A stretch of DNA of 44,834 nucleotides. It comes from Chloroflexota bacterium. GTDB lineage: Bacteria; Chloroflexota; UBA5177. A program made the position numbers and the translations under genes. Of the stretch, positions 7,406 through 44,834 are shown in pieces. The stretch lies in the NCBI GenBank assembly GCA_025966365.1, contig JAICWV010000012.1, forward strand, positions 1-44,834, read 5' to 3'. A model generated the notes under the pieces. It had not been told where the DNA came from, did no database searches, and worked only from the letters and a program-made list of their open reading frames with translations. The number at the start of each line of letters is the position of its first letter. Position 1 is the stretch's first letter.

Positions 7406-7406
7406 G

Positions 7407-9928: not shown

Positions 9929-11366
9929 GCGCCTGCGCCGTCTCCTTGCGTCGCCACGAAACCAGGGCGCACAGGACCCAGAAGAGCACGGCGAGGTCGG
10001 GCAGAAAGTAGCCATTGTCTACCAGCCCGTGGATCAACATGGCCGTCATGGCCGCGGTCGCACCGAGCACGAGTGGATCCTGTGAAGCACGTCGGGCTAC
10101 CACTTCCCGCCAGAACACCACCTCAAGCCAGAGAAAGGTGAAGAGTCCGGCGATTCCCGTGCTGAGCCAGAAGTCAAGGAACTCGTTGTGGGGGTGAGAC
10201 AAGCACGGCTCGCCTTCGGCGTTGGTCCCGACGTAGCCAAGGCCGGGCGGGCATTCATTCTGCCAGCGATCCTGCGCGCGTGTCGGGGCGTAGTAGTGCT
10301 GAAAGTTGTCCGGCCCGATACCGAACACCGGATGGTCCTGAACCATGCGCGCGGCCGCGCCCCAGACGATCAGCCGCTTGGAGGCAGTCCCTGCGTGCCC
10401 TGACGTCAGGGTGCTAACGATCTTGGGACCCGCAGCGGCGAAGCCCACCACGGCAACGACAAACGCCGCAGCTACCAGCCACTTGCCCCAGGGTTGCATC
10501 CAGGCGAGAAGGAGCAAAACAGCAATCGCGACCGCGACCCAGGCGCCGCGCGAATACGTCAGCACCAGCGCAGCGATAAGAACCGCGCCGAGCACGGCAC
10601 ACGCGACGCGCTTGAGGCCCGTCACGACCAGCGCGAGTGACAGCCAGAGCGGAATGAGCCGGTCGTAGAGCAGCCCCAGATTGTCCGGGCTCCCGTACGC
10701 GCCACGTGCCTGTTGAAGATGCACACCCAGCACCGGTATCGTGGGTCCGGCGGTGGCAGTCATGGACTGTTCCATCCCGATGGCCCCGGCTACTGCGCCA
10801 CCCAGCACAGCAGAGAGGGCGAGATACACCCAGTCGCGCCCCCGCCGGAGGAACAGCAGAAGCAAGAGAAAGTACACAACGGGCTCGACAATTGTCCAGC
10901 GGAGCCATTCCAATGCGACGTGGCGGTCAGCAGCTGCGACCGTGCTCGCCATTCCGGCAACAACCAGTAGCAGGGCAGGAGGCGCGAACCTCGACTGAAT
11001 CGCAGCCTGCCAATCAACGGAGATGCGACCGGAAACAACAAGCGCCCCTGCGGCAAGCACGTCCAGGACAATCAGCAGTTCGGACGGAGCAAACTCCCAG
11101 TGACCGATGTGCTTCGTGGCGGGAAAAAAGGGCAGGTAGAAGGGGACCAGCAACAGGGCCAGATCGAGACGAAACAGCGTCAAGCCCGCCAGCAGGGCGC
11201 CCACGGGCACATACAGCAGCGGCCAGGGAGCCAGGTAGACGGTGAGCGAGAGGGCGCTCAGCAACGCAAGGACGAGGGTATCGCGCGACTGACCTGGGGT
11301 CAGTGACGGGAACGATGGTCCAGGTCTAGCCGGAGATCCAGGGATCGACCGCGCGGGTATATTCAA
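9921..11366 (-). CDS. O-antigen ligase / Wzy-type polymerase family membrane protein (second copy)
   Basis: Polytopic membrane protein, about 445-481 residues, with the same family marks as its neighbour: LTYSRGAWVAVAIAVLLLL, HPVFGIGPDNFQHYY, and SHPHNEFLDFWLSTGIAGL with the loop His. The two copies differ clearly, suggesting one polymerises and one ligates. The start is unresolved. The first membrane helix begins near 11275, but no ATG or GTG lies between the ndk stop and that helix. TTG at 11366 (used here, 41 bases inside ndk) and TTG at 11264 (cutting the helix) are the options, and neither has a good ribosome-binding site. Confidence 0.8.
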   Translation of the reverse strand: MNIPARSIPGSPARPGPSFPSLTPGQSRDTLVLALLSALSLTVYLAPWPLLYVPVGALLAGLTLFRLDLALLLVPFYLPFFPATKHIGHWEFAPSELLIVLDVLAAGALVVSGRISVDWQAAIQSRFAPPALLLVVAGMASTVAAADRHVALEWLRWTIVEPVVYFLLLLLFLRRGRDWVYLALSAVLGGAVAGAIGMEQSMTATAGPTIPVLGVHLQQARGAYGSPDNLGLLYDRLIPLWLSLALVVTGLKRVACAVLGAVLIAALVLTYSRGAWVAVAIAVLLLLAWMQPWGKWLVAAAFVVAVVGFAAAGPKIVSTLTSGHAGTASKRLIVWGAAARMVQDHPVFGIGPDNFQHYYAPTRAQDRWQNECPPGLGYVGTNAEGEPCLSHPHNEFLDFWLSTGIAGLFTFLWLEVVFWREVVARRASQDPLVLGATAAMTAMLIHGLVDNGYFLPDLAVLFWVLCALVSWRRKETAQAHV

Positions 11367-11784
11367 CGATCTCGTCTGGCTGGAAGTACAGGCCGATCTC
11401 GTACTCCGCCGTATCCGGTGCGTCGGAACCGTGGATGAGGTTCTGGCCGATCTCGAGCGCATAGGTGCCTCGAATGCTGCCCGGCGCGGCCATGACCGGG
11501 TTGGTGCCACCCATCAGGTTGCGTGTGGCTTCGATGGCGTCCGGTCCCTCCAGTACGCCGACCAAGACGGGACCCGAGGTGATGAAATTTACCAGGCCTT
11601 CGTAAAACGGCTTCCCCTGGTGGACAGCGTAGTGTCTCTCCGCCAGCGGGCGATCGATCTTCATCAGCTTGAGAGCGGCGATTCTCAGCCCCTTGGTCTC
11701 GAAGCGGCTCAGAATGGCCCCAGCCAGCGCCCTCTGGACTGCATCCGGCTTCACAATGATGAGCGTCCGCTGTGTGTCGGCCAA
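11326..11784 (-). CDS. ndk: Nucleoside diphosphate kinase
   Basis: This enzyme transfers the gamma-phosphate between nucleoside di- and triphosphates through a phosphohistidine. The 152-residue product has the full family pattern: TLIIVKPDAVQR with Lys12, the RNLMGGTNP loop, and the active-site NLIHGSDAPDTAEYEI with His118. The start is TTG, placed six bases after a GGGGAG ribosome-binding site on the minus strand, giving MADTQRTL. It sits inside the polysaccharide operon, where it could help supply nucleotide-sugar precursors. Its stop region overlaps the possible start of the next membrane protein. Confidence 0.97.
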   Translation of the reverse strand: MADTQRTLIIVKPDAVQRALAGAILSRFETKGLRIAALKLMKIDRPLAERHYAVHQGKPFYEGLVNFITSGPVLVGVLEGPDAIEATRNLMGGTNPVMAAPGSIRGTYALEIGQNLIHGSDAPDTAEYEIGLYFQPDEIVEYTRAVDPWISG

Positions 11785-26086: not shown

Positions 26087-27775
26087 ATGCTCGGAGCCCC
26101 AATCATAATGAACGCCACGACGTTCGCACGGCGATTCGGCGCACTTTCGGCGGCGCTCGCTGGATTGATGAATATCACCTCGGCGCTCTATCCGGGCGTC
26201 CCGTCGCGCATGGAGATTCTCAAAGACCTGCTGCCGTTGTCGGTGCTCCGGCTCAGCAACACCGCTACCGTGCTCATTGGTTTCGCACTGATTCTGCTCG
26301 CCGACGGACTGCGCAAGCGGCGCGAACGGGCCATGCATCTCACGGTGGCCCTCCTGACCGTCTCCGTCATCCTGAACTTGACCAAGGGGCTCGATTTCGA
26401 AGAGGCGACCGTCTCGCTCGTGCTGGGAACCGTACTGCTCGCGGGGCGCCGCGGATTCGATGTGCGCAGCCGTTCAATCGTCCCGCGGCGCGGCATGCAT
26501 CAGATCCTGGTACTGGCCGCCCTCTACGTCTGTTACATCCTGGCCGGCTTCCTGATCTTGCGCCATGCTGTGCTGCCTGCTCCATCCATCGCCACGGCAC
26601 TGCAAGAGCCCTTTCGGCTGATCGCCGGTTCCTCGCAGATCCACTACCTGACGCCCCACGCACGGTGGTTCGCGCGGTCGCTCGTCGCCCTGGGCAGCCT
26701 CGGCATCCTTTTCGCGCTTGCGCAGCTCTTTCGGCCCCTGCTCCCGGCGCGGACATCCAGCTCCGACGATCTGCGTCGTGCCCGGGACCTCGTACGCCGG
26801 TACGGAACCGACACTCTCTCCTACTTCGCCCTCCAGGACGGCCGTAGCTATTTCTTCGACGCCAGCGGTGAAGCGATGTTGTCATATCGACTGTGGGGCA
26901 CGGTAGCCGTTGTCGGGGGTGACCCGATCGGACCCACTGATCGGTGGGAACCACTGCTTCGCGCCTTCCTGGAGTTCGGTGCCGCACACGGGATGGACCC
27001 GTGCTTCGTCGGCGTGAGCGCAGCGACCGCGACCGTCTTCGACGTCCTGGGCTTGAGGCTGCTCAAGATCGGCGAGGACGCGGTGATCCGGCTGCCGGGC
27101 TTCGACGAGTCGGCCCTGAAGCGAAAGGTCCGGAGGGCAGGGCGGCACGCAGAGTCGCTGGGGATCGAGGCGCGATGCTATCGCTCCGGCGAGCTCCCGG
27201 AAGCGGTCCAACGCCAGATCGAGCAGGTGTCACGGCAATGGGTCGAGGCCAAGGGCGGGACGGAGCAAGGGTTCTCGATGACGCTCGGCCGGCTGCCTCG
27301 GGAGACCGACGGCGACTGCGAGGTGGTGGTGGCGATGCAAGGCGGTCACGTTTGGGGCTACCTGAGCCTCGTGCCCGTGGCGGGCGGAACATCCTGGTCG
27401 CTGGACGCCATGCGCCGCCGCCGGGACAGCCCCAACGGACTGACCGAGTTCCTGGTCCTCCGCGCCGCGGCCATGTACCGAGACCGCGACTGCCGCACGC
27501 TGAGCCTGAATTTCGCCGCGTTGGCCGATACCCAGGGAGAGCTGGAATCGCGGGTGCTGAGCGGCACGAGACGCTTCCTGTGGGAGAACCTTTCCTCCGT
27601 CTACCAGCTGAAGTCGCTCTATCAGTTCAACAGCAAGTTCAATCCGGACTGGCAGAGCCGATATCTGGCCTACAACGAGGTCCTGAAGATCCCCAAACTG
27701 GCGGTGGCGGTGGCGCAGTGTGAAGCGCCGATTCAGGGCATCGCGCCCAACCCATGGTCACGCAAAGCGCCGTAA
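26087..27775 (+). CDS. DUF2156 protein, MprF C-terminal-like aminoacyl-phospholipid synthase candidate
   Basis: The 562-residue product has about five to six membrane segments in the first 230 residues. A soluble domain of the GNAT-like fold follows, typical of MprF/DUF2156: RARDLVRRYGTDTLSYFALQ, FDASGEAMLSYRLWGTVAVVGGDPIGP, the FDESALKRKVRRAGRHAESLG basic segment, and the C-terminal LNFAALAD and LYQFNSKFNPDWQSRYL. MprF transfers Lys or Ala from aminoacyl-tRNA to phosphatidylglycerol. The eight-helix flippase half is not fused here but occurs as separate genes at 7407 and 29598. The start is ATG at 26087 or 26108; neither has a ribosome-binding site. A 12-bp palindrome, CGTAAGCTTACG, lies at 26058-26069. 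Confidence 0.85.
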   Translation: MLGAPIIMNATTFARRFGALSAALAGLMNITSALYPGVPSRMEILKDLLPLSVLRLSNTATVLIGFALILLADGLRKRRERAMHLTVALLTVSVILNLTKGLDFEEATVSLVLGTVLLAGRRGFDVRSRSIVPRRGMHQILVLAALYVCYILAGFLILRHAVLPAPSIATALQEPFRLIAGSSQIHYLTPHARWFARSLVALGSLGILFALAQLFRPLLPARTSSSDDLRRARDLVRRYGTDTLSYFALQDGRSYFFDASGEAMLSYRLWGTVAVVGGDPIGPTDRWEPLLRAFLEFGAAHGMDPCFVGVSAATATVFDVLGLRLLKIGEDAVIRLPGFDESALKRKVRRAGRHAESLGIEARCYRSGELPEAVQRQIEQVSRQWVEAKGGTEQGFSMTLGRLPRETDGDCEVVVAMQGGHVWGYLSLVPVAGGTSWSLDAMRRRRDSPNGLTEFLVLRAAAMYRDRDCRTLSLNFAALADTQGELESRVLSGTRRFLWENLSSVYQLKSLYQFNSKFNPDWQSRYLAYNEVLKIPKLAVAVAQCEAPIQGIAPNPWSRKAP

Positions 27776-27788
27776 AACCAGCCTCTCG

Positions 27789-29516
27789 TTATCCGTCGAC
27801 ACCTGGTCCAGAGGTCGTGGCCGAGCCGCTGCGCCCCTCGGCAAACGCGTGCGAGACACCCGCTGGCTCGTCTCGCTGAAGTGACGCTGCCGCCGGCGCC
27901 CGGGCCACCTCAGGTTTCGGCGCCGCCGGCACGATCCAGCTTCGGATTTCCTCGTATAGCAGATAGAAGAACAGTCCCACACCGGCGTAGCAGATAAGGA
28001 TCCAGAGGTTATAGATGTTCGGGAAGGTGTTGATCCACAGCAGCGTGGCGTGGTGGAACCAGTCGTTCTCCGAGAGCCAGTTCGTCGGCGGAATGTCAAG
28101 CAGAAATCGGTGATCACCGGTGACGTGCGGTCCATAATTGGTCAGTGTGGCCTCCCATCCCTTGTAGATGGACATGCCACAAAGCAGGGCGGCGAACAAA
28201 CCAAGCACAACCTTGAGTGCCCGGTTCCGCAGGGCGAGAATATTGCGCCAGAGATAGGCAAGACCGATCGTCAGGAATGGGAGCATGGGCGTGAAGTAGC
28301 GCCCGTCGAATAGGTTCGCCGAGAAGAAGCACACCAACTTCGACATGGCAATGAGCACGACGGCGGCGATGGCAAGTCCGAGGACCGCCTGCCTTCTGCG
28401 CTCGCGGAAGAAGAAGTAGAGACCGGCGACAGCACCGAAGAAATACGGGGACTGGATAAACAGACCCTGGTAGTTGTCCTTGAGCGCCCAGTTCGCGCTC
28501 TGCTGCACGAAGATGGCCGGATTGTTTCTTAGAACCGGGGACAGTGCGTCGTAGGGAATCGGGCCGTGACTGAACAGGTTCAGGGCGATGCTGGGCCAGA
28601 GCGGCGTTGAGAACAGGTTCCCATAGGTTTCCCATCTGTACGCTGCCCGCGATTCATAGAGATTGATGAAGAGGTGGTGAAAGGAAATGAGATTGTACGC
28701 GGCCAGCACGGAAAGGCCGCCGCCCATGCCTACAACCACGATCCCCATGGCTCGTCGCCGGAGTGCGAGCGGCGCCGGTGCGGTCGCGATACTGACCAGA
28801 AACCAACCCAGATAGATGGGCACGATGAAAATCGCCGTGCTCTCGGTGACGACCGTGTAGCCCAGCAAGACGCCGATGAGAAGCAGCTTGTATGGCCGCA
28901 CTGCCGTGGGACGGAACGTGATGGCGAGGTAGAAGAGGAGCGTCAGCAACAGGATGTACAGGGGCATCCGTTGATAGGAAATGCTGTACCGCCACAGAAG
29001 TGTGCCGAGGCCAAGGGACACCGCGGCGATGAGGCTGGCCGTCCGGCTCTGGGTCAGAGTAAAACAGATCAAATAGAAAAGCACGATCACGAGCGCCCCA
29101 CAGAGGGCGGGATAGAACATCGACAGCGCTTCGGTCGGGCTGTCGCTGGTCAGTCCCTGGTGCTGCCAGTTGTAGGGGGCGGTGGCGAGACGGTGGAATC
29201 CGAGAGCCAGAATGTAGAAGGGCGCGCCGAGTAGCGACAGCCCGGGCGATCGCATGGCATAGACGCGACCATCCACCTGAGCGTAGTCGGGGTTGATCCA
29301 CTGCGGGTACGCGCCGATATCGGTCGTTCGCCGCTCAACAATCGCGCGAGTGAGCGCGTAGTCGGGCCCGTCCTGGCTGTTCGAGATTCCGACGGTACTG
29401 GAAAAATAGACGGCCGAAAAGACGACCAGCAATGCCCACGGGATGAATTTCGGATCCCGGATCACTGTCTTGATCGTGCCGAGGCGGGGTGAAAACAGAG
29501 CAGAAATTGAAGTCAC
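27789..29516 (-). CDS. GT-C type membrane glycosyltransferase (PMT/ArnT-like)
   Basis: The 575-residue polytopic protein has about 11-12 membrane helices. The first large extracytoplasmic loop holds SNSQDGPDYALTRAIVERRTT, with the acidic residues where GT-C enzymes bind the polyprenyl-phosphate sugar. Further on are DGRVYAMRSPGLSLLGAPFY and a late loop with FDGRYFTPMLPFLTIG. This is the GT39/GT83 layout: sugar transfer outside the membrane from a lipid donor. The last 40 residues are a disordered Pro/Ala-rich tail. The start is GTG without a good ribosome-binding site. It is convergent with the DUF2156 gene, 13 bases apart. Substrate unknown. Confidence 0.82.
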   Translation of the reverse strand: MTSISALFSPRLGTIKTVIRDPKFIPWALLVVFSAVYFSSTVGISNSQDGPDYALTRAIVERRTTDIGAYPQWINPDYAQVDGRVYAMRSPGLSLLGAPFYILALGFHRLATAPYNWQHQGLTSDSPTEALSMFYPALCGALVIVLFYLICFTLTQSRTASLIAAVSLGLGTLLWRYSISYQRMPLYILLLTLLFYLAITFRPTAVRPYKLLLIGVLLGYTVVTESTAIFIVPIYLGWFLVSIATAPAPLALRRRAMGIVVVGMGGGLSVLAAYNLISFHHLFINLYESRAAYRWETYGNLFSTPLWPSIALNLFSHGPIPYDALSPVLRNNPAIFVQQSANWALKDNYQGLFIQSPYFFGAVAGLYFFFRERRRQAVLGLAIAAVVLIAMSKLVCFFSANLFDGRYFTPMLPFLTIGLAYLWRNILALRNRALKVVLGLFAALLCGMSIYKGWEATLTNYGPHVTGDHRFLLDIPPTNWLSENDWFHHATLLWINTFPNIYNLWILICYAGVGLFFYLLYEEIRSWIVPAAPKPEVARAPAAASLQRDEPAGVSHAFAEGRSGSATTSGPGVDG

Positions 29517-29597
29517 GAAATGTCTGAGTCGGAGTTGTAGCAGCGCTCGGTTTACTGTACTATTCGCCCCTGGTAATCCGTCGACCGTGTCCAGGAT

Positions 29598-30632
29598 TCA
29601 GCTGTACGGCCGTTCCTCCGGGCGGCTGCTTCGGGACGCCAGGCTGAGCACCAGAGTTTCCCCATGCCGCGCCAGCAACAGCAGTCCCACCACGGTCACG
29701 GGCACGAAATTGATGAAGTGCGCCGCCAGGGCGGCCGCGACCGCGGGGCCGTGCCGGACGTCGTACAGACTGAGGGTGAGCACCATCAGGTAATCAAAGA
29801 CGCCCAGATACCCCGGTGAACTGGGCACTGCCATCCCCAGGAACAGCACGCCGGTCAGAAGGAACCCGGCACTCAGCGGAACGTCGAGATGAAACGCGCG
29901 CACCAACAGCCAGAACAGGACGGAATTCGATACCCAGATGATGACGGTGTAGGCCAGATAGAGTGATAGCGCCCCCGGATCACGCAGCGCCCGCACCCCG
30001 GTTAGCGCCTGCCCCAGCATCTCAACCACTACCCGCAAGGGCGTTTCTCGGAAGCGCGCAATAATCCGCTGCGCCCATCCTGCTTCGGGTGCAGACATGA
30101 GGGCCACGACCACCAGTGCCGCCAGCCCGGCAACCATGAGCCCACCCACGACGATGGTGGGAGCGACGAGCGCGCGCGGAAAGGCCACGGTGGGGGCAAA
30201 GACAACCAGGATGAGGAGCACGGCGACTCCATCCGTGATCCGCTCCACCGCGATCGTTCCCAGCGCTCGGGCCATTCCCACTCGCGACCGATCCCGCACC
30301 CAATACGCGGTAACGACTTCACCCAGACGCAAGGGCAGGACGGTGTTCACTCCGTAGCCGACGCTGATGGCCCCAAAGAGGGTCCACCAGGTAGGAGAAT
30401 CCTGTCCAAACAGCAATCCCCAGCGCGTAACTTTGATTCCGAAGGTGAGGAGAAACGGGACAAGCGCGATAAGCAGGTAGGTGTAGTCAACGTGGGCAAA
30501 GGCGCTCGCGAGAACGTCGCCGCTGACGGTCCGGAGCAGCAGGACCAGAAGACCGACACCAAGGACAAGTCCGGCTACCAGGGCGAGGGCTCTCGCGAGG
30601 GGGCCGGTCAGGTTGGTCTCCTTCAGTGGCAA
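29598..30632 (-). CDS. UPF0104 / LPG-synthase-TM flippase-like protein (second copy)
   Basis: The 344-residue product has about eight to nine helices and the same family marks as the protein at 7407: ITRWGLLF-type basic turn (KVTRWGLLFGQDS), VGYGVNTVLPLRLGEVVTAYWV, LGTIAVERITDGVAVL, and VPSSPGYLGVFDYLMVLTLSL. It could flip lipids made by the DUF2156 protein nearby, completing a split MprF pair; this is an inference. The TTG at 30632 lacks a ribosome-binding site. An AAGGAG lies just inside, six bases before an in-frame CTG at 30611, so the real start may be there. Confidence 0.85.
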   Translation of the reverse strand: MPLKETNLTGPLARALALVAGLVLGVGLLVLLLRTVSGDVLASAFAHVDYTYLLIALVPFLLTFGIKVTRWGLLFGQDSPTWWTLFGAISVGYGVNTVLPLRLGEVVTAYWVRDRSRVGMARALGTIAVERITDGVAVLLILVVFAPTVAFPRALVAPTIVVGGLMVAGLAALVVVALMSAPEAGWAQRIIARFRETPLRVVVEMLGQALTGVRALRDPGALSLYLAYTVIIWVSNSVLFWLLVRAFHLDVPLSAGFLLTGVLFLGMAVPSSPGYLGVFDYLMVLTLSLYDVRHGPAVAAALAAHFINFVPVTVVGLLLLARHGETLVLSLASRSSRPEERPYS

Positions 30633-32944: not shown

Positions 32945-34876
32945 ATGCGACCGGCGTCAGCGGCACGGCTCCCGGGACTACGCAGTTTGTTTCAGCAGCA
33001 GCCGGCACCGGAGATCGAGGAGCCGGCGGCAGTGCCGGTACAGGACCGTGCAGACAGGCAGAGCAGGGTGCGGACGCTGCCGTTGGGCATCACACCCGGC
33101 TTCGTCCTCGTCCTCCTGGTTGGCGCCGTGATGCGGCTGGTGGATCTGACGTGGGATCAGAACACCCACATCCATCCGGACGAGCGGTTCCTCACCATGC
33201 TCGGCACCGGGGTCCGGCTCCCTGGGTCGATCTGGCAGTATTTCGATCCCGCCAACTCACCGCTCAGCCCTTACAACACCTCATCCTACGGGTCCATGGT
33301 CTACGGCATGCTGCCGGTCACGGTCAACAAGGTTCTGGCGGTCTGGCTCGGCAATGACAACTTCGGAATGTTCGTGATCCAGGGCCGCGGGCTCTCCGCG
33401 CTGGCCGATCTCGGCACGCTGTTCTTCGTCTATCTGATCGCCCGGCGTTTTGCAGAGCGTGGTCTGGTTCCGGCCAGTGTCGCCTTGCTGTCCCCGGCCT
33501 TTTATGCCGTCGCCGTCCTGCCCATCCAGATTGCCCACTTCTTCACGGTCGACAGCTTCCTCAACCTCTTTGCCTGGGGCGCCGTGTATTTTGCTCTGCG
33601 CTACTCCTTCGGGAGCACCTGGATCTCGCTGGCACTCAGCGGCCTCTTCCTGGGCCTGTCCGTGGCCTCCAAGGTGACGGGTATCTACATCGTGCCGGTC
33701 GTGGTGTTTCTCATCATCTCCCGGCCGGTCGTCGAAACTGCCGATCCCGTGGCGGTTCTCAACTGGCTGCGGCACGCAGGGAGGAACTGGAGGGAGAGTG
33801 AGCGGGCGGCGGAGGACGCCGTTTATGGGCTCATCGTGCTCAGCCTGGCCGCATACATCGGGGTCCGTCTCGGAGCCCCGTATTACTTCCAGAGCGCCAA
33901 TCCCCTTGACCCTCGCCTTGGACATGCCTTCCTGTCCAATCTGCAGTCGCTCAACGCCTACAACTCTCCCGATGTCTGGTACCCACCGGGCGTGCAGTGG
34001 ATTCACAAGCCCCCCGTCACGTTCGCGCTGGTGAACCTGGCCGTGTTCGGAGTGGGAGTGCCGTTCTTTCTGGCGGCGGTCGCGGGCTCGTACATCACCG
34101 TCGCGCGCCTGGTCCGAACCCCGCTGATCATCGTGCTGCTCTGGACCATTGCCCTTTTCCTCTACCTATCCATCGAGTACGTCAAGACGATGCGCTACTT
34201 CATCCTCCTGTACCCGGCGCTCGCTCTCTTCGCCGGCATCGGTCTGGCCGGCCTGCTTGCCGTCGTCCGCGGCTATTTCAGACCTATTCTGGCTCTAGCC
34301 CTGATCGTCTGGCCTCTGGCGTTCATGTCGATCTACACCACGGATCTATCGCGTTACACAGCGTCCCAGTGGATATACCGGAACATACCCAGTGGGAGCG
34401 TCATTGTGAACGAGGAGTGGGACGACCCGCTGCCGCTGCAGCTGCCCGACACCAACGGCAAGACCTTTTCCCAGTCGCTTCCGCCGCCCCGGAATCCCGC
34501 GGTACGCGCGCTCCTCAACCAGGAGGGCTACATCAAGGACGGCCAGGTATCGCTCACCCTGCCCGATTTCCACTACGACACCCGGCCGAAATGGGCAGAG
34601 ATGCACTACGTCCTGAACCACGGCAACTATCTGGTACTTTCATCGAATCGAGGCTGGGGAAGCATGCCGACGGATCCCGGCCAGTACCCGAAGCAGACGG
34701 AGTTCTACAAAAACCTGTTCGCGGGCAAAACCTCGTACCGCGAAGTGGCTCGCTTCACCTCCTTTCCCTCATTGCGCTACCTCGGCATCCCCATCGACTT
34801 CCCGGACCAATGGGCGGAAGAGGCCTTTACCGTCTACGACCATCCGGAGGTCATCGTCTTTGAGCGCGTGCGGTGA
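32945..34876 (+). CDS. GT-C (GT39/PMT-type) membrane glycosyltransferase
   Basis: The 643-residue product has a cytoplasmic N-terminus of about 50 residues and about 12 helices. The first extracytoplasmic loop carries DQNTHIHPDERFLTMLGTG with the acidic Asp-Glu pair typical of polyprenyl-phosphate sugar enzymes. Further marks are VLPIQIAHFFTVDSFLNLF and YVKTMRYFILLYPALALFAG. A C-terminal extracytoplasmic domain of about 160 residues follows the last helix. It likely transfers a sugar from a polyprenyl donor to a glycan, lipid or protein outside the membrane. Its stop overlaps the next gene as GTGA. Confidence 0.88.
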   Translation: MRPASAARLPGLRSLFQQQPAPEIEEPAAVPVQDRADRQSRVRTLPLGITPGFVLVLLVGAVMRLVDLTWDQNTHIHPDERFLTMLGTGVRLPGSIWQYFDPANSPLSPYNTSSYGSMVYGMLPVTVNKVLAVWLGNDNFGMFVIQGRGLSALADLGTLFFVYLIARRFAERGLVPASVALLSPAFYAVAVLPIQIAHFFTVDSFLNLFAWGAVYFALRYSFGSTWISLALSGLFLGLSVASKVTGIYIVPVVVFLIISRPVVETADPVAVLNWLRHAGRNWRESERAAEDAVYGLIVLSLAAYIGVRLGAPYYFQSANPLDPRLGHAFLSNLQSLNAYNSPDVWYPPGVQWIHKPPVTFALVNLAVFGVGVPFFLAAVAGSYITVARLVRTPLIIVLLWTIALFLYLSIEYVKTMRYFILLYPALALFAGIGLAGLLAVVRGYFRPILALALIVWPLAFMSIYTTDLSRYTASQWIYRNIPSGSVIVNEEWDDPLPLQLPDTNGKTFSQSLPPPRNPAVRALLNQEGYIKDGQVSLTLPDFHYDTRPKWAEMHYVLNHGNYLVLSSNRGWGSMPTDPGQYPKQTEFYKNLFAGKTSYREVARFTSFPSLRYLGIPIDFPDQWAEEAFTVYDHPEVIVFERVR

Positions 34877-36450
34877 GCGCCCGCCTGTCTGAGCCGGCCC
34901 GGAACTCGGACGTAAAGACCACCGGGGAGCAGACTGCCCACTGGTGGCGTCATCCGGCGGTCATCCTGGCTGCGATCACCGTGGCCGGATTGATCATCCG
35001 GCTCTTCCGGCTGGATAGCCTGCCCGCTGAGATGTGGGGCGACGTCTCCGCCCATGAATACCTCGCGAACAAGGTCATGACCGGAGACTTTTACTTTGAC
35101 TACGAGTTCGGGGGGGACGGGCCCCTGTTCTCCTATATCGCCGCAGCGGTCGGGAAGGTGACCGGTCTCTCTTTCTTCAGTCTCAAGCTGACGGGCGCGC
35201 TGATCGGCACCCTCCTGATCGTGGCCATCTACTTCTACGCCGAGACACTCTTTCACAGCAGGAGAATCGGGTATATCGCGGCCTTTCTCACTGCCGTCTC
35301 CTTCTGGACCATCGTCATGTCCCGGCAGGCCAAACCCTACATCCTGGTTCCGGTCTTTGTGGCCGCCGCGCTCACGCTGGCACTTCGCCGCCAGCGCATT
35401 CTGACCGGAATGGTCGTCGGACTTGGCATGTACGCGCAGGCGGCGTTCTGGGGCATGCCGATACTCCTCCTCTTCATGCCGCTCGCACTTCCCGTGGCCG
35501 CCGTCGTCGCGCTCCCGTTCTTGATCACATTTGCTCAGAACCCGAGCTCGATGATGGGATCAAGCTCATATCTGGGCAGCAAGATTCATGTCGCCTCGTC
35601 GCCGGTCGACCTGGCGCTGCGCGTTCTCGACAACCTCGGGAAAAACGCCCTCTCTTTCAATTTCTCCGGCGATACCACCTTTCGCCAGAACATCAGCGGC
35701 AATCCCCATCTCGACGTCATCAGCGGGGTCCTCTTTGTCATCGGCTTGCTGCTACTGATGGTCCACACCATTCGCACCCGGGACCGGCGGATGGCGATCT
35801 GGTTCCTCCTGCCTTTCCTCGTTCTTCAGATTCCGCTGCTCGCCGATCAGGTTCCCTCGGACACTCCCAACATCGGCCGCCTGACCTGCCTTCTGCCCAT
35901 GACCATCGCCGCCATTGCCTTCGCGGTCGACTGGCTCACCGTCCAGCTCTGCCGGCTCCTGAATGGTCGCGTCTCCAGGAGCGGGCTGGTGGCGGGAGGC
36001 GTGACCGGAATCGTGCTGGCCGGGATCACCGTCATTAACCTCACGAATTACTTCGAGGTCTATCCCCGGGGCCTGCCCAATAACAACACGCCGTTCGACC
36101 TGGTCATCGCCCGGGACATGGATCGTGCTCCTCCACACACGACCTCGATTCTCCTGGGCTGCTGTTGGGGCGACTACACCCAGCCCGAGCCTCAGTCGGT
36201 CCTGTACCGCACGGCGACGGGGCACGAGCCGTCGATTGCCTCGTCCATGGCCACTGTCAGGCACGACATCCGCAGTCTCGCTCCGGGCACCCGCGTGGCG
36301 CTCTACATGGATCCGTCGCGTCGGGTACCTCACGATCTGGCACTTCGCCAGTCCACTGAGAAAGTCTTGAGGGCGAACGGCTGGCAGGTTGCACGGGTGA
36401 TAACGGGCGTGTACGGGGGCCCCGGCGGCGGCTCGGCCGGGACCGGCTAG
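34873..36450 (+). CDS. GT-C (GT39/PMT-type) membrane glycosyltransferase
   Basis: The 525-residue product has about 10-11 helices and an extracytoplasmic loop with LPAEMWGDVSAHEYLANKVM, the acidic residues again in the GT-C donor position. Later segments include VSFWTIVMSRQAKPYILVPV and IPLLADQVPSDTPNIGRLTC. The C-terminal part after the last helix is a small outer domain with LLGCCWGDYTQPEPQ, where the adjacent Cys pair is notable. The start is GTG, translationally coupled to the previous GT-C gene. It may be a partner or a second-step enzyme of that gene product. Confidence 0.85.
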   Translation: MSARLSEPARNSDVKTTGEQTAHWWRHPAVILAAITVAGLIIRLFRLDSLPAEMWGDVSAHEYLANKVMTGDFYFDYEFGGDGPLFSYIAAAVGKVTGLSFFSLKLTGALIGTLLIVAIYFYAETLFHSRRIGYIAAFLTAVSFWTIVMSRQAKPYILVPVFVAAALTLALRRQRILTGMVVGLGMYAQAAFWGMPILLLFMPLALPVAAVVALPFLITFAQNPSSMMGSSSYLGSKIHVASSPVDLALRVLDNLGKNALSFNFSGDTTFRQNISGNPHLDVISGVLFVIGLLLLMVHTIRTRDRRMAIWFLLPFLVLQIPLLADQVPSDTPNIGRLTCLLPMTIAAIAFAVDWLTVQLCRLLNGRVSRSGLVAGGVTGIVLAGITVINLTNYFEVYPRGLPNNNTPFDLVIARDMDRAPPHTTSILLGCCWGDYTQPEPQSVLYRTATGHEPSIASSMATVRHDIRSLAPGTRVALYMDPSRRVPHDLALRQSTEKVLRANGWQVARVITGVYGGPGGGSAGTG

Positions 36451-38065: not shown

Positions 38066-38146
38066 GCCATCAGTATCGCAGGGTTTCGTCGCGGCATGGA
38101 TGGCGGTGTACCTTGATTCGTTATTTGCGGGCTCGGAGGGGACGTG

Positions 38147-38914
38147 ATGGGATTGCTGGACGGAAAGAACGCACTGATCTGGGGAGTAGCGAACCGCCGC
38201 AGCATCGGCTGGGGCGCGGCACGCGCACTGGCGCGGGAAGGGGCCCGCATAGCGCTGACCTATGAGAGCGAGCGCGTGGAAAAGATGGTGCGCGACTGCG
38301 CTGACCAGGTACCCGGGACGACCATGATCCAGGCCGACGTTACCGATGACGCCCAGATCCAGGCCGTGTACGACGAGCTGAAGGCGGCGTGGGATCGAGT
38401 TGACGTGGTGGTTCACAGCATCGCTTACGCGCCTCGGGAGGATATGGAGGGCCGGTTCGCCGACACTTCTCGAAACGGCTTCCTGACAGCACTCGGCATC
38501 AGCGCCTATTCCCTGGTCCCCATCACGCGCTACGCGGTTCCGCTGATGCCGGACGGCGGAAGTGTCATGACCATGACCTACATCGCCAGCGACCGCGTCT
38601 TTCCCAATTACAACGTCATGGGTGTGGCCAAAGCCGCCCTCGAAGCATCGGTCCGCTATCTAGCAGCGGATCTCGGTCCGCAGGGCGTGCGGGTGAACGC
38701 GATTTCTCCGGGCCCGATCTCAACGCTCGCCGCCCGCGGCGTTCCCGGTTTTACGGGATTTGCCAAGGCATCCACCGAGCGCTCTCCCCTCCGTCAGTCC
38801 ACCGACATCGATCAGGTGGGCGACACGGCGGTCTTTCTCGCCAGCAATCTGAGCAGAGGCGTAACGGGTGATGTACTATTCGTGGATCAAGGCTATCACG
38901 TGTTAGGGTTTTAG
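38147..38914 (+). CDS. fabI: Enoyl-ACP reductase (NADH)
   Basis: FabI performs the last reduction of each fatty acid elongation cycle. The 255-residue SDR protein has NALIWGVANRRSIGWGAARAL (cofactor loop), VVVHSIAYAPRED, catalytic Tyr145, Tyr155 and Lys162 in the Y-x6-K spacing special to FabI, and VNAISPGPISTLAARGV. The ATG at 38147 lies seven bases after a GGAGG site; an in-frame GTG one codon earlier is possible. With plsX this gives two lipid synthesis genes in the window. Confidence 0.95.
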   Translation: MGLLDGKNALIWGVANRRSIGWGAARALAREGARIALTYESERVEKMVRDCADQVPGTTMIQADVTDDAQIQAVYDELKAAWDRVDVVVHSIAYAPREDMEGRFADTSRNGFLTALGISAYSLVPITRYAVPLMPDGGSVMTMTYIASDRVFPNYNVMGVAKAALEASVRYLAADLGPQGVRVNAISPGPISTLAARGVPGFTGFAKASTERSPLRQSTDIDQVGDTAVFLASNLSRGVTGDVLFVDQGYHVLGF

Positions 38915-39312: not shown

Positions 39313-40698
39313 TTACGGACGCGGGAACGAAATTGACGCGACTGTCCCCACGCCGGACTCGCTGGTGACGCGCAGTTCCCCGCCGTGCTGCACGGCGATG
39401 CGGGAGACGATGGAAAGCCCAAGGCCGGCTCCCCCGAGAGACCGGGACCGCGCTTTGTCCACGCGATAGAAGCGCTTCCCCAGGTGGGCCAGGTGCTCGC
39501 CGGCAATGCCTTCGCCGGTGTCGCGCACGCGAAACTCCACCGTGGCATCATCGGCCCGCACCTCAAGCATCACCGTTCCTCCGGCTCGGGTGTACTTGAG
39601 CGCGTTGTCCACCAGGGCCAGAGCAGCCTGATGGATCAGGAGAGAGTCTCCGAGCACACACTGCTGCGTCCCCGCGTTCAGCGTGACAGTGAGGCCAAGC
39701 TCGGCAGCGCGTGCCGCCACCCGGCGGGCGATGACAGCGGCGGTCTCCGAGAGATCGACGATGTCTCGCTCCATGTGGGCCATGCCCGAGTCGAGGCGTG
39801 CCAGCTGAAGCATGCTGTCCGCCAGCCCAGACATGTGATCGACCTCGTGCACCACGTCGTCCAGGAGCTCGGCGTCTTCCTCCGGAAGTCCCTTTCGGCT
39901 CCGCAACAAGACCTCGGCGTCGGCGCGGAGCAGTGTCAGCGGCGTCCGTAGCTCATGCGAGGCGTCGGCAATGAACTCCTGCTGGCGGCGGTGGGCGGCA
40001 CGCACTGGAATGAGAGACCGTCCGGCCAGGACGTATCCAGCCACGGTTGATGCGAGAAGCATGGCGACACCAAGACCCAGGAGCGTTCGCAGAAGCGCAT
40101 GCAGGGACTGAAGCTCTCCGGTGACATCCGCACCCACCAGAACCACTGCCGCCGTGCCATTCGGCCCCGGGACCGCCACTGCATAGCGCTCGATGTGGAG
40201 TTTCTGAATGGTGATGGTGTCCCCTGCAGATCCCCTACGTGCGGCATCCTGCGCGATGGATCCGGAGGTGAATTTTGGAAGTGCGGCCGCGACCGGACTT
40301 GCGTCCGACAGTTGTCCATGGCCGTCGAAGCACGCCGAGAGCAACACATGCTGACCGTCCGGTCCTCGCATCCCTTCGTCGAAACCACAGGCGTCCTGAG
40401 CTCCAAGCGCTGCCGGCCCAATCATGGGTCGAGCAATGAACTGGGCCGTCTGTTCCAGACCGGTGGAAAGCGGATTCAGAACGATCCTGTCGACAGCCAG
40501 GTAGAGGACAACGCCGAAGAGGATCAGGCCGGCGGCCGTCATGGCCGCGTACCAGAGAACCATGCGGCGGCGCACGCGGGCGAGCAGGGCGCTGTCGGCG
40601 TCCCGCCACGGTTTCCGCCGGGCGGGATTGAGCGTTCGCCCGGCGGCGACCAGCCGGCCACCGATGGCGTCAATCCTGGATCTTGTAGCCCACACCAC
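39313..40698 (-). CDS. Sensor histidine kinase
   Basis: The 461-residue membrane kinase has helices at about residues 47-69 and 203-226 around an outer sensor domain of about 130 residues that holds two Cys (104 and 123). The cytoplasmic part has the HisKA motif ADASHELRTPLTLLRAD with phospho-acceptor His248, then ALVDNALKYT, VRDTGEGIAGEHL and GGAGLGLSI of the ATPase domain. No full HAMP domain is evident. The start is GTG, preceded by AGGA at good spacing and overlapping the response regulator by 29 bases. It should phosphorylate that regulator; the signal is unknown. Confidence 0.93.
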   Translation of the reverse strand: MVWATRSRIDAIGGRLVAAGRTLNPARRKPWRDADSALLARVRRRMVLWYAAMTAAGLILFGVVLYLAVDRIVLNPLSTGLEQTAQFIARPMIGPAALGAQDACGFDEGMRGPDGQHVLLSACFDGHGQLSDASPVAAALPKFTSGSIAQDAARRGSAGDTITIQKLHIERYAVAVPGPNGTAAVVLVGADVTGELQSLHALLRTLLGLGVAMLLASTVAGYVLAGRSLIPVRAAHRRQQEFIADASHELRTPLTLLRADAEVLLRSRKGLPEEDAELLDDVVHEVDHMSGLADSMLQLARLDSGMAHMERDIVDLSETAAVIARRVAARAAELGLTVTLNAGTQQCVLGDSLLIHQAALALVDNALKYTRAGGTVMLEVRADDATVEFRVRDTGEGIAGEHLAHLGKRFYRVDKARSRSLGGAGLGLSIVSRIAVQHGGELRVTSESGVGTVASISFPRP

Positions 40699-41344
40699 GC
40701 ACTGTCCTGATCAGGGTCCGTTCGAAGCCGCGATCGATCTTGTCGCGCAGATAGTGAATATAGGTGTCGACGACATTGGATAGGGCGTCCAGATCGTAGC
40801 GCCAGACATGATCGGTGATCTGTGTGCGCGTGAGGACCTGACCCGGGTGGCGCATGAGGAACTCGAGCAGGGCAAATTCCTTCGGCGTCAGGTCGATGAG
40901 CCGGTCACCGCGACGCACTTCGTGCCGCACCTGGTCCAGCACGAGATCATCCACCCGAATTTCTTCGGACATCTCCAGGTCACGATTTCGCCGCCGCAGC
41001 AGCGCATTGACCCGGGCCAGCATCTCCTCCATGGCGAAAGGCTTGACCAGATAGTCGTCCGCCCCGGCGTTCAATCCCCGGACGCGGTCGTCCACCGTTC
41101 CCCGGGCGGTGAGCATCAGGACCGGTGTCTGCACATCGTACGTCCGCAGCTGGCGGCATACGTCGATACCGTCCATGCCCGGCAGCATCACGTCCAGAAT
41201 CACCAGGTCGTAGGTGTCGGTGCCCGCCATGTGCAAGCCATCGGGGCCGGTAGCCGCCACGTCAACGGTATGCCGTTCCTCGGAGAGTACCCGGCGCAGA
41301 AGGGCACCGAGCCGCTGTTCGTCTTCAACCACCAGGATGTGCAT
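40670..41344 (-). CDS. OmpR/PhoB-family response regulator
   Basis: The 224-residue product has a receiver domain with acidic Glu7-Asp8, phospho-acceptor Asp51 in LVILDVMLPGMDG, Thr79 and Lys101 in VKPF. A winged-helix DNA-binding domain follows (LTPKEFALLEFLMRHPGQVL, WRYDLDALSNVVDTYIHYLR, IRTVRGVGYKI). It is co-transcribed with the histidine kinase and faces the DUF2298 genes across a 168-base gap, making those genes a natural candidate target. Confidence 0.95.
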   Translation of the reverse strand: MHILVVEDEQRLGALLRRVLSEERHTVDVAATGPDGLHMAGTDTYDLVILDVMLPGMDGIDVCRQLRTYDVQTPVLMLTARGTVDDRVRGLNAGADDYLVKPFAMEEMLARVNALLRRRNRDLEMSEEIRVDDLVLDQVRHEVRRGDRLIDLTPKEFALLEFLMRHPGQVLTRTQITDHVWRYDLDALSNVVDTYIHYLRDKIDRGFERTLIRTVRGVGYKIQD

Positions 41345-41431: not shown

Positions 41432-41461
41432 TTGAGGGGCGCGCGAACCGAGCTATACAAT
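41432..41461 (+). promoter_or_regulatory. Promoter of the DUF2298 genes
   Basis: TTGAGG at 41432-41437 and TACAAT at 41456-41461 (within TATACAAT) are 18 bases apart, matching at four and five of six positions. Transcription should begin near 41468, 45 bases before the first ATG. Confidence 0.55.
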
Positions 41462-41484
41462 GCCAGGACTGGCTGGCGTTCCCG

Positions 41485-41512
41485 AGCGCGCTGCACCGGC
41501 AGCGCGCTTTTT
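41485..41512 (+). terminator. Intrinsic terminator in the DUF2298 leader (possible attenuator)
   Basis: AGCGCGCTGC (41485-41494) pairs perfectly with GCAGCGCGCT (41499-41508) around ACCG and runs into five Ts (41508-41512). The next base is the A of the DUF2298 ATG. It lies between a good promoter and the coding region, with no plus-strand gene upstream that would need it. It would end most transcripts at about 45 bases unless something prevents the hairpin. Confidence 0.75.
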
Positions 41513-44434
41513 ATGCGACGTGAGGAGAAGCGACTGAGCGCACAACGATTTCGAGGTCTGCCGACGTCCCGTCCCATCCTGCTCGCCGGCCTCCTGCTTC
41601 TGGTCATGCTCGCCCTGCCGGCCGGCGTTCTGGCGGGACGCGTGCTCGGCCCGCACCAATCCACCGCCACCCACGCGGCAAACGTCTATCCCGATCGGCC
41701 GGCTGTCCCGGAGGACTCGCGCCTCATGCTGACCCCTGCCCAGTGGCGGGCCGACCAGCAGGGGCCGACCATGGACGCCATCCTCCCGCCCGACGGCATC
41801 GCCATGCAGGCGCCCATTCTCTTCTGGTGGCTCGCGCTCGAACTTTTGGGGTTTCTGGCATTCCCATTTGCCTTCCTGATGCTGGGCGGGCTTGCCGACC
41901 GCGGGTGGGTTGTAGGCAAAACCCTGGGACCGGTCGTGCTCGCCTATCTGGTCTGGATCGGGCCCGCCACCGGGATCGTTCCGTTCGATCGCACGGAAAT
42001 CCTGGCGGCACTGGGAGGCTTCGCCGTGGCCGCGGTGGTTGCCTTGCTCTTGCTGCGCCGGGAGATCATCGACTTCATACGAACGAGTTGGCGGCCCATG
42101 CTGGCCGCCGAGGTTGTCTTTCTTGCCGGTTTTGCCCTCTTCCTCTGGCTGCGCGCCTGGTATCCGGACCTCGGGCATCAGTTCTCGCCGGTGACTCCCA
42201 GCAATCCCGGCGATGGGCGCATGGGTGAGAAGCAGATGGAGATGGCGTTTCTCAATGCCATCGTCCGGAGCCGCGTCTTTCCGCCGCTCGACCCATTCTT
42301 CGCCCACGGCTACATCAACTACTACTACTTCGGCTTCGTCCTGGTCGCAACGCTCTGCAAGCTCACCCAGATCACCACCGCAACCGGATTCAATCTGGCC
42401 ATCGCCGGTTTCTTCGCCATGCTGGTCGGCAACGTCTTCACCGTCACCTTGACGCTCACCCGCCGCGTCTGGTCGGGCCTGGCCGCCGTTGCGTTTGTCG
42501 GCATTATCGGCAACCTGGCCGGCGCCTGGCAGGTGGTTACCGACCTCATGGCGGTGGGGGGCGCACATTCCTCCTTTCCGGTGATCGGGGGATTCATTGA
42601 TACGGCGTCGGGCCTGCGCGCCGTTCTTGTCGACCACGCGCAGCTGAACGCATTCGACTTCTGGGGGCCCACTCGAATCGTTCCGCCGGTGGGGCTGGAC
42701 ATCAGCGAGTTTCCGTACTTTACCTATCTCTTTGCCGACCTCCATCCGCACCTCATGGCCTTTCCCATGACGGCCGCGGCCCTGGCCTTTGCCGTGAGTC
42801 TGGCGGCGGCGGGTTACGCCGGGGCCGGCCGGAGAATTATCGCCTGGGCACTGGGTGCGGTTCTCTTTGGGGCCCTGCTGGCAACCAATCCCTGGGACTT
42901 TCCCACCTACCTGGTCGTGGTCGGCATCGGTGCGCTCGTCGGCGCCTTCATCCCACAGCGGCGGCTGGTTCCCGCCATCCTGGCGCGGCCAATTGGCTGG
43001 TGCCTCGCACTCGCCGCCGGTGGCTTCCTGCTTTTCTACCCGTTCGAGCACAGCTACAAGACGGTTTTCAATACGGGAATCGGTCTTACCCGAGACATGA
43101 TCGATCCGATCTGCAAGGGGAGTGCGTCCTCCTGCACCGGCGATGCCTACGACACCCTGGTGACGCCGCTGGGAGTCTACCTCGAGCATTTCGGCCTCTT
43201 CCTTTTTCTCTTGCTCTCGCTCCTCTTCCTCATGCTCGCCCGAGCCGGCGGCCGTGAGCGCGTCCATCGCTGGTTGCTCCGGATGCAGTTCGCGTATTAC
43301 TACCGCGATCGCTACGGTCGCGTGCGCCGCGCAGCGCGCCTGGTCCGGCGCATGCGGGCTCGACCCAGAGCTGTCGTTGACCCTTCAACCGCGGTTGGAA
43401 CCTTGATTGTCGCCGGAGGACTTGTCCTGACGCACCTCTATCTGCTCGCCTTCCTGGCAGCGGTCATCGGTCTGGTTCTGGTGCTGCTGCGGCGAACACT
43501 GTCCCGCCTTTCCACCACGGATCTCTTCGTGCTGGTCCTGTCGCTGGTCCCACTCGGGCTATCGCTGCTCACGCAGATGTTTTATGTCAAGGACTTTCTC
43601 GGCGGCGGCAACACCTTCCGCATGAACACCATCTTCAAGTTCTACAACCAGGCGTGGGTCCTCTTCGCGGTCATCGGCGCCTACGCCCTGTGGTACGTGA
43701 TTTGTCGGCTCTTGCCCCCGCGGCCCTTCGTGGAACCGGCGGTTGAGGAGGGTAAAACGGCTCCCCCTCCGCGCAATTCACCGGTGGCGGCCCTGGGCCG
43801 GTTTGTCGATCAGCACCTCCTCTGGTCGAGCGCGCTGGCGGTTCTCCTCGTCGCGTCCCTGGTCTATACCTACGCCGGAACCATCTCGCGCGAGACCTAC
43901 CGGTCGGCCTGGTTGCCGGAGGATTCCATACCACTCACGCTCGACGGCATGGCATTTATCAAGATTGCGTATCCCGGAGATTACGCCGGCATCTCGTGGC
44001 TGAACGGGCACGTCGTCGGTGCTCCGGTCATCGCCGAAGCGGCCGACGGGTACTACCAGTGGCCGTCCCGCGTCAGCATGTTTACCGGCCTTCCCGACCT
44101 CATCAATGGAAATCACGAATCAGATGCGGAGCAGCGGTACCCCGACGAAGTCGATCCCACCGGACTGTGCTCCGGCGCCGCACATCCCGGCCGTTGCGCG
44201 GCGGCAGCCCATTCCCGAGATGACGATCTCAAGCGGCTCTACGAATCGACGGACATCGCGGACAAGGAGTCCGTAATCCACGCCTACGGCATCAGGTACA
44301 TCTATGTCGGCTTCTCGGAGCGTCAACAATTCCCTCAGTCCGGACTTGACGCCTTCCAACAGATGGTAGGTCGCGGGTTACAGGTCGCATTTCGGCACGG
44401 CAACACGATCATTTACCGGGTGACAGCCGCATGA
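41513..44434 (+). CDS. DUF2298 (Chlor_Arch_YYY) membrane protein
   Basis: The 973-residue giant membrane protein has about 18-20 helices. It carries the family name motif GYINYYYFGF after a loop with GEKQMEMAFLNAIVRSR, plus FADLHPHLMAFPM, NPWDFPTYLVV, and FLGGGNTFRMNTIFKFYNQAW. The C-terminal outer domain of about 180 residues includes INGNHESDAEQRYPDEVD and two Cys. DUF2298 proteins occur in Chloroflexota and some archaea; their function is unknown, and GT-C-like sugar transfer is suspected from topology. ATG at 41513 follows a terminator hairpin and lacks a ribosome-binding site; an in-frame CTG at 41534 lies six bases after GAGGAG. The open frame continues upstream as antisense shadow. Confidence 0.9.
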   Translation: MRREEKRLSAQRFRGLPTSRPILLAGLLLLVMLALPAGVLAGRVLGPHQSTATHAANVYPDRPAVPEDSRLMLTPAQWRADQQGPTMDAILPPDGIAMQAPILFWWLALELLGFLAFPFAFLMLGGLADRGWVVGKTLGPVVLAYLVWIGPATGIVPFDRTEILAALGGFAVAAVVALLLLRREIIDFIRTSWRPMLAAEVVFLAGFALFLWLRAWYPDLGHQFSPVTPSNPGDGRMGEKQMEMAFLNAIVRSRVFPPLDPFFAHGYINYYYFGFVLVATLCKLTQITTATGFNLAIAGFFAMLVGNVFTVTLTLTRRVWSGLAAVAFVGIIGNLAGAWQVVTDLMAVGGAHSSFPVIGGFIDTASGLRAVLVDHAQLNAFDFWGPTRIVPPVGLDISEFPYFTYLFADLHPHLMAFPMTAAALAFAVSLAAAGYAGAGRRIIAWALGAVLFGALLATNPWDFPTYLVVVGIGALVGAFIPQRRLVPAILARPIGWCLALAAGGFLLFYPFEHSYKTVFNTGIGLTRDMIDPICKGSASSCTGDAYDTLVTPLGVYLEHFGLFLFLLLSLLFLMLARAGGRERVHRWLLRMQFAYYYRDRYGRVRRAARLVRRMRARPRAVVDPSTAVGTLIVAGGLVLTHLYLLAFLAAVIGLVLVLLRRTLSRLSTTDLFVLVLSLVPLGLSLLTQMFYVKDFLGGGNTFRMNTIFKFYNQAWVLFAVIGAYALWYVICRLLPPRPFVEPAVEEGKTAPPPRNSPVAALGRFVDQHLLWSSALAVLLVASLVYTYAGTISRETYRSAWLPEDSIPLTLDGMAFIKIAYPGDYAGISWLNGHVVGAPVIAEAADGYYQWPSRVSMFTGLPDLINGNHESDAEQRYPDEVDPTGLCSGAAHPGRCAAAAHSRDDDLKRLYESTDIADKESVIHAYGIRYIYVGFSERQQFPQSGLDAFQQMVGRGLQVAFRHGNTIIYRVTAA

Positions 44435-44834
44435 TCGATGCGTTGCGCTGGCTGATCGTCTTCGAGATCCTGAGCCTCATCTTTCTGCCGCTGACCTTCA
44501 CCGTGCTGGGCCGGCTTCGAGACGGCGGTTATCCCTTCTCCAAGGTGCTGGCACTGCTCCTGGTGACCTATGTGACGTGGCTCATCGGGAGCTTTGTTCC
44601 GGTGGCACGTTCGCCTGTTCTGCCGGTGCTGGCCGCACTTGTAGGGCTGATCTCCTGGTGGCTGTGGCGCCCGGCGACGATACAGCGTCTCCGTGCCTCC
44701 TGGCGTCTGCTGGCGCTGGAAGAGGCCATCTTCCTGGCCGCCTTCGTCGCCTGGGCGCTCCTGCGCGTCCACGTCTTCGGCACCGGCGCCAACCATACCG
44801 AGCAATTCATGGACATGGCCCTCCTCAACGCCTC
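44431..44834 (+). CDS. Second DUF2298 (Chlor_Arch_YYY) protein, cut by the window end
   Basis: Translation from ATG at 44431, overlapping the previous stop as ATGA, gives at least 134 residues: MIDALRWLIVFEILSLIFLP, several further helices, and HVFGTGANHTEQFMDMALLN. The last segment aligns with GEKQMEMAFLNA of the preceding protein, just before its YYY motif. It is therefore a tandem paralogue starting directly at the first membrane helix without the 90-residue N-terminal part of the first copy. The rest lies outside the window. Confidence 0.85.
   Translation, partial: MIDALRWLIVFEILSLIFLPLTFTVLGRLRDGGYPFSKVLALLLVTYVTWLIGSFVPVARSPVLPVLAALVGLISWWLWRPATIQRLRASWRLLALEEAIFLAAFVAWALLRVHVFGTGANHTEQFMDMALLNA

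Follow-up and report, generated by a model that had tools for sequence, protein, structure and literature searches.

We consider it likely that DUF2298 proteins are membrane glycosyltransferases of the GT-C fold and that two of them (YYY1 and YYY2), together with a PMT_2-type GT-C protein (GTCa) and usually an Agl23-like protein, belong to one assembly. Their genes were analysed in a window of 44,834 bases from a Chloroflexota bacterium (the window being the whole stretch of DNA under study) and in relatives from the same phylum and beyond. New here is the observation that, in most relatives, the N-terminal half of the YYY1 protein is a PMT_2-type GT-C module; family membership, predicted folds, invariant residues, paralogy and gene order make up the rest of the observed evidence.

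Two overlapping DUF2298 genes and their surroundings

The two DUF2298 genes lie in tandem at the end of the window (Table 1), and the YYY1 stop codon overlaps the YYY2 start codon as ATGA (44431-44434). The original prediction of two different, translationally coupled DUF2298 proteins was borne out by this overlap and by the family matches given below. The window ends with the contig (44834 bases) and the remainder of YYY2 is absent from the assembly; YYY2 was therefore studied in relatives, whose complete proteins are mostly 740-870 aa long. A YYY1 start at 41513 is plausible rather than proven. The GTCa and GTCb genes, which overlap as GTGA, end about 5.06 kb before YYY1, in agreement with the two GT-C genes predicted some 5 kb away. 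We do not count the FabI-type reductase among the components of the mechanism.

Further glycan-related genes occur elsewhere in the window. A polysaccharide-like cluster at 4034-11510 (minus strand) encodes an LPG_synthase_TM protein, three GT4 enzymes and two adjoining Wzy_C (O-antigen ligase) proteins. Positions 26087-30632, close to a GT4-methyltransferase-GTCa-GTCb run, encode a protein with an MprF-type lysyl-transferase domain, an ORF of 575 aa that matched no Pfam family, and another LPG_synthase_TM protein.

Table 1. Features of the DUF2298 locus, with positions in the window.
Feature	Position	Strand	Basis or remark
YYY1, DUF2298/TIGR03662 protein, 973 aa	41513..44434	+	PF10060, TIGR03662, AlphaFold2, Foldseek
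YYY2, second DUF2298/TIGR03662 protein, first 134 aa	44431..44834	+	Pfam, NCBIfam
GTCa, stand-alone PMT_2-type GT-C protein, 643 aa	32945..34876	+	Pfam, homology to fused halves
GTCb, PMT_2-type GT-C protein, 525 aa; weak TIGR03663/Agl23 similarity	34873..36450	+	Pfam, NCBIfam
OmpR-type response regulator	40670..41344	-	Adjoins YYY1; not conserved, not part of system
Sensor histidine kinase	39313..40698	-	Near YYY1; not conserved, not part of system
FabI-type enoyl-ACP reductase	38144..38914	+	5' neighbour of YYY1 gene in genomes of same family
E239 codon of YYY1, first long outer loop, candidate catalytic base	42227..42229	+	184/184 domains
YYY motif of YYY1, Y270-Y272	42320..42328	+	Y270 and Y271 183/183; Y272 178/183
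E124 codon of YYY2, counterpart of YYY1 E239	44800..44802	+	EQFMDMALLN, alignment

The adjoining two-component genes are not conserved

The YYY genes are divergent from genes for an OmpR-type regulator and a kinase, as predicted, and both of these genes were confirmed as real. About 170 bp separate the starts of the regulator and YYY1 genes, and one promoter-like site is present at 41432-41461 (+), an arrangement that would suit a glycosyltransferase pair controlled by the divergent two-component system. However, among about 110 DUF2298 loci a close regulator/kinase pair was found in the window only; one further locus matched a regulator weakly, and unrelated kinases lay nearby in a few others. 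Furthermore, the family relative G001 shows the same FabI-YYY1-YYY2 order without a regulator between, and a divergent position by itself is weak evidence for control. The predicted two-component control was therefore rejected, and we regard it as very improbable.

A strong GC hairpin (GCGCGCTG...CAGCGCGC) followed by TTTTT comes after the promoter-like site and ends exactly at the proposed YYY1 ATG (41432-41513, +). The hairpin might act as an attenuator in the leader; alternatively, YYY1 might in fact start further downstream.

YYY1 and YYY2 have a predicted GT-C fold

YYY1 matched Pfam PF10060 with 330 bits (E 3.7e-98; cut-off 27.8) and NCBIfam TIGR03662 with 436 bits (cut-off 300.25). The first 134 residues of YYY2 matched the same two families with E-values of 3.6e-13 and 1.9e-18, respectively, these matches being partial through the contig end. 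Both GTCa (36.3 bits) and GTCb (30.5 bits) exceeded the gathering score of PMT_2 (PF13231; 26.1 bits). GTCb is not a member of TIGR03663 (Agl23), scoring 30.4 bits against a cut-off of 126.25, and is related to it by iterative search.

AlphaFold2 was run with natural alignments, and YYY2 was modelled from a relative in the same family (L046). Both models were confident, with a pLDDT of 85.8 and a pTM of 0.90 for YYY1, and of 89.8 and 0.92 for the YYY2 relative. In Foldseek searches of the PDB, the top 8 matches of YYY2 (among them CeDPY19, AglB, AftA, STT3 and PglB) and the top 5 of YYY1 (including CeDPY19 and AglB, with ArnT ranked lower) were all GT-C enzymes at probability 1.00. Example scores were E 8e-8 for CeDPY19, E 7.6e-7 for AglB and TM 0.43/0.51 for AftA; TM-scores were modest for both models (0.26-0.51), since the alignment is confined to the GT-C core. 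All significant matches of both models were to GT-C proteins, so that this structural comparison supports the GT-C fold originally suspected for the DUF2298/TIGR03662 proteins. In the models, the GT-C core begins with the fourth helix of the DUF2298 part, behind three additional N-terminal membrane helices, and the conserved outer loop comes after this fourth helix (helices of YYY1 being counted from residue 101).

Sequence comparison gave no corresponding link. Neither YYY1 nor YYY2 had a GT-C match in Pfam, a profile search of PDB sequences returned no GT-C enzyme and only weak helix matches to receptors, and hhalign comparison of DUF2298 with GTCa reached a probability of 12-36% over the C-terminal part only. 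A sequence link between the YYY proteins and solved GT-C structures was thus rejected on the PDB profile search. GT-C families are often undetectable from each other by sequence, and for this reason the fold-based placement is independent of sequence homology.

With no significant sequence homology to solved GT-C proteins and low TM-scores, the YYY proteins might also be read as transporters, or as another non-glycan membrane family whose glycan-gene neighbourhood is incidental. We give this almost no credence, since Foldseek places GT-C proteins first for both models, with transporters at or below about 0.4, and since the GTCa fusion described below spans the whole phylum.

Invariant residues suggest an active site in both paralogues

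A conserved acidic segment had been predicted in the first outer loop, and its glutamate, E239 of YYY1, proved invariant across 184/184 DUF2298 domains of both paralogues. E399, H411, H413, R703 and K709 are also invariant in these 184 domains; D260, Y270-Y272, D409 and N459, among others, are near-invariant. As predicted, YYY1 and YYY2 share the segment (EKQMEMAFLN and EQFMDMALLN, respectively), which reads E-x-x-M-x-x-A-x-L-N, one residue shorter than first described. Its position ahead of the YYY motif was confirmed in YYY1; in YYY2 the motif falls past the contig end and was seen in relatives only. GTCa in turn contains an H-P-D-E motif, of which the classical acidic pair D79-E80 is invariant (90/90).

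Judging by these invariant residues of the DUF2298 domains and of GTCa, no module looks dead. We infer from sequence conservation that E239, its YYY2 equivalent and GTCa D79/E80 are putative catalytic bases, the active-site location of E239 being taken from sequence order rather than from model coordinates. In the tryptophan C-mannosyltransferase DPY19, a single first-loop glutamate (Glu71 of CeDPY19) is essential (PMC10154233), and the YYY proteins likewise have a first-loop glutamate. The possibility that YYY2 is a decayed pseudoenzyme was rejected, every residue invariant in YYY1 being kept. The set is likewise present in a Pseudobutyrivibrio DUF2298 protein that occurs alone, bar two substitutions elsewhere.

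A GT-C fold is no guarantee of catalysis, as illustrated by PIG-U, an inactive GT-C protein (PMC7801869). The YYY proteins could accordingly be GT-C-folded subunits that do not transfer sugar and serve as scaffolds or in lipid handling, flipping or presenting lipid-linked sugar for GTCa and Agl23-like catalysts. The three extra helices ahead of the YYY core are in keeping with such a role, as is the NCBIfam name of the neighbouring TIGR03663 ('flippase activity-associated protein Agl23'). Purified Haloarcula Agl23 translocated lipid-linked oligosaccharide across liposome membranes (PMC11182771), and because of this reported translocase activity in the neighbouring family we retain the lipid-handling reading. 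We nevertheless find it unlikely: an E239 present in every domain and several near-invariant E, D, H, R and K residues in both paralogues resemble an active site and would be unusual in a decayed subunit, and the Pseudobutyrivibrio protein, standing alone among glycosyltransferases, keeps the same residues. Sugar transfer by the YYY proteins themselves is the reading that we prefer.

YYY1 is usually fused to a PMT_2-type GT-C module

In relatives, YYY1 usually forms the C-terminal half of a protein of 1400-1850 residues, the N-terminal half of which is homologous to GTCa of the window over nearly its full length. This fusion was found in 94/102 sampled YYY1 genes, a sample that was drawn from two genome collections, from which two known duplicates were removed and in which further overlaps are possible. 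Four of the 8 unfused genes run off a contig, and the true exceptions come down to four: the window, G001 from the same family, L107 and L117. Several genomes add an extra YYY1-like copy and tetratricopeptide repeats (TPR), giving chains of roughly 2300-2790 residues; in some genomes a GT-C module, two YYY modules and the repeats form a triple fusion of ~2600 residues. The unit is therefore one of at least three GT-C modules and not the pair of glycosyltransferases originally envisaged, a reading that missed the usual fusion of YYY1 to one of the GT-C enzymes noted 5 kb away.

TIGRFAM describes TIGR03662 as including a second class with an additional N-terminal region, two domain copies and TPR repeats, and as associated with TIGR03663. 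The fused GTCa half explains this 'additional N-terminal region'. Two loci (L140 and L094) carry tandem GTCa-YYY1 fusion genes ahead of YYY2. A full-length stand-alone GTCa is also encoded at L168 6572-8563, in a genome (G032) with a very weak DUF2298 match.

The window is an unfused variant

In the window the GTCa gene is separate and lies 6.6 kb upstream of YYY1. YYY1 starts with a new hydrophobic segment (a membrane helix), after which comes the conserved linker found between the two halves in relatives. GTCa of the window and that of G001 (32945-34876 of the window; L165 7609-9417) are divergent stand-alone copies that form a sister pair (100/100) on a long stem. Grouping this pair with the fused GTCa sequences from its own family and order was rejected (AU p 0.00045, a value that long-branch effects may influence), and a simple splitting-off of GTCa from an ancestral fusion was accordingly not supported. 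Since the pair does not group with fused GTCa of its own family, probably either a divergent stand-alone GTCa took the place of a fused half that had been lost, or GTCa evolved fast after separation. The window thus holds a conserved multi-GT-C assembly in a form that has secondarily become unfused.

Two ancient paralogues with a conserved gene order

YYY1 and YYY2 form two ancient paralogue clades, and the extra copies of triple fusions derive from the YYY1 side. A TIGR03662 match was detected in 144/201 sampled genomes of the phylum (above the cut-off in 129), usually in two or more copies; the family extends to archaea and Clostridia as well. A single-sequence scan of genome contigs for DUF2298 loci gave no match, and an alignment-based scan gave 80 loci. 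These 80 named loci are labelled Chloroflexi almost throughout, the few other labels looking like submitter mislabels.

Gene order was assessed on 48 YYY2 genes, those with sufficient sequence on their 3' side. YYY1 lies directly 5' of YYY2 in 36/48, a TIGR03663-like ORF lies directly 3' in 33/48, and both arrangements coincide in 26. GTCb-like GT-C ORFs are found near the core genes in about 30 loci, mostly just 5' of the fusion. Within 6 kb of DUF2298 genes, PMT_2 proteins occur in 15/106 cases, against at most 1/106 for random genes of the same genomes; TIGR03663 neighbours occur in 10/106, and GT4 enzymes in 8, against 3 among random genes. These neighbours were called with a simple ORF picker, mostly on metagenome assemblies. 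Among the sampled YYY neighbours, neither a GT-A gene dedicated to making a donor nor a GtrA flippase was prominent. The survey thus agrees with the predicted co-occurrence of DUF2298 pairs and glycan genes, the pair being conserved in most genomes and linked to PMT_2 and TIGR03663 proteins.

Outside the phylum, the DUF2298 gene of a Pseudobutyrivibrio plasmid (L171 9917-12172) lies inside a surface-polysaccharide locus that looks complete and encodes GT2 enzymes, an O-antigen ligase and an NDP-sugar epimerase/dehydratase. A DUF2298 copy on a haloarchaeal plasmid (Halarchaeum) has no glycan genes beside it.

Our literature search on DUF2298/TIGR03662 returned two passing mentions only, with no function described. 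The family had been predicted to be undescribed, which holds for its function in the literature searched but not for the family itself; both the family and its association with TIGR03663 already have entries in NCBIfam and TIGRFAM.

Discussion

YYY1 and YYY2 of the window belong to TIGR03662 (Chlor_Arch_YYY) and PF10060 (DUF2298), entries that give no function. To these entries our analysis adds an assignment to the GT-C fold, a separation into two ancient paralogues and the identification of the extra N-terminal region of TIGR03662 as a PMT_2-type GT-C module. Like DPY19, AglB/STT3/PglB and AftA, the YYY proteins combine a multi-helix GT-C core, an acid in an outer-face loop and a C-terminal outer domain. 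They differ from these enzymes by the absence of detectable sequence homology, by the three extra N-terminal helices and by YYYxG, DLHxH and RMNTxFK motifs of their own.

In Pmt1-Pmt2 and EmbA-EmbB, two related GT-C proteins act as one assembly in the form of a non-covalent heterodimer, whereas the YYY system has up to three GT-C modules per polypeptide and further GT-C genes alongside. The triple fusions resemble the O-mannosyltransferases TMTC1-4, in which a GT-C module precedes a TPR domain located on the outer/lumenal side (PMC7801869). However, TMTC1-4 are eukaryotic proteins with one GT-C module and no DUF2298, whereas the bacterial fusions have three GT-C modules. In multi-component transmembrane glycosylation, a lipid-linked donor is made inside by a GT-A enzyme, flipped by a flippase and used outside by a GT-C transferase (PMC8035078, PMC11127046). 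The YYY assembly likely follows the same logic, with several GT-C modules instead of one and with GT-A and GtrA genes not prominent nearby.

We propose that YYY1, YYY2 and PMT_2-type GTCa form one assembly in Chloroflexota, which an Agl23-like GT-C protein would usually join; fusions, gene order and a common history connect the modules, and those on separate chains may also form a physical complex. Each GT-C module would most likely bind a polyprenyl-phosphate-linked sugar or a lipid-linked oligosaccharide on the outer side of the membrane, where the first-loop acid (GTCa D79/E80, YYY1 E239 and its YYY2 equivalent) would activate the acceptor. The modules may then extend one extracytoplasmic glycan, carried by a protein, lipid or wall polymer, residue by residue, so that the YYY proteins and linked GT-C enzymes would probably build one surface sugar structure jointly. 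Counted against a glycosyltransferase function were the modest TM-scores, the lack of sequence homology, the conserved loop following the fourth instead of the first helix (behind three extra N-terminal ones), the precedent of inactive PIG-U and the Halarchaeum copy. More tentatively, a single chain or tightly linked gene set with three catalytically intact GT-C modules from two sequence families, together with TPR, may add different lipid-linked sugars sequentially to one surface glycan, and DUF2298 may found a new glycosyltransferase family; we put the chances of this somewhat below even.

Through its GT-C placement and its natural fusion to a recognisable GT-C enzyme, DUF2298 becomes a testable enzyme with named candidate active-site residues, which offers a first point of entry into the assembly of surface glycans in Chloroflexota. 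Covalently linked multi-GT-C proteins would provide natural material for studying acceptor transfer between the active sites of membrane glycosyltransferases.
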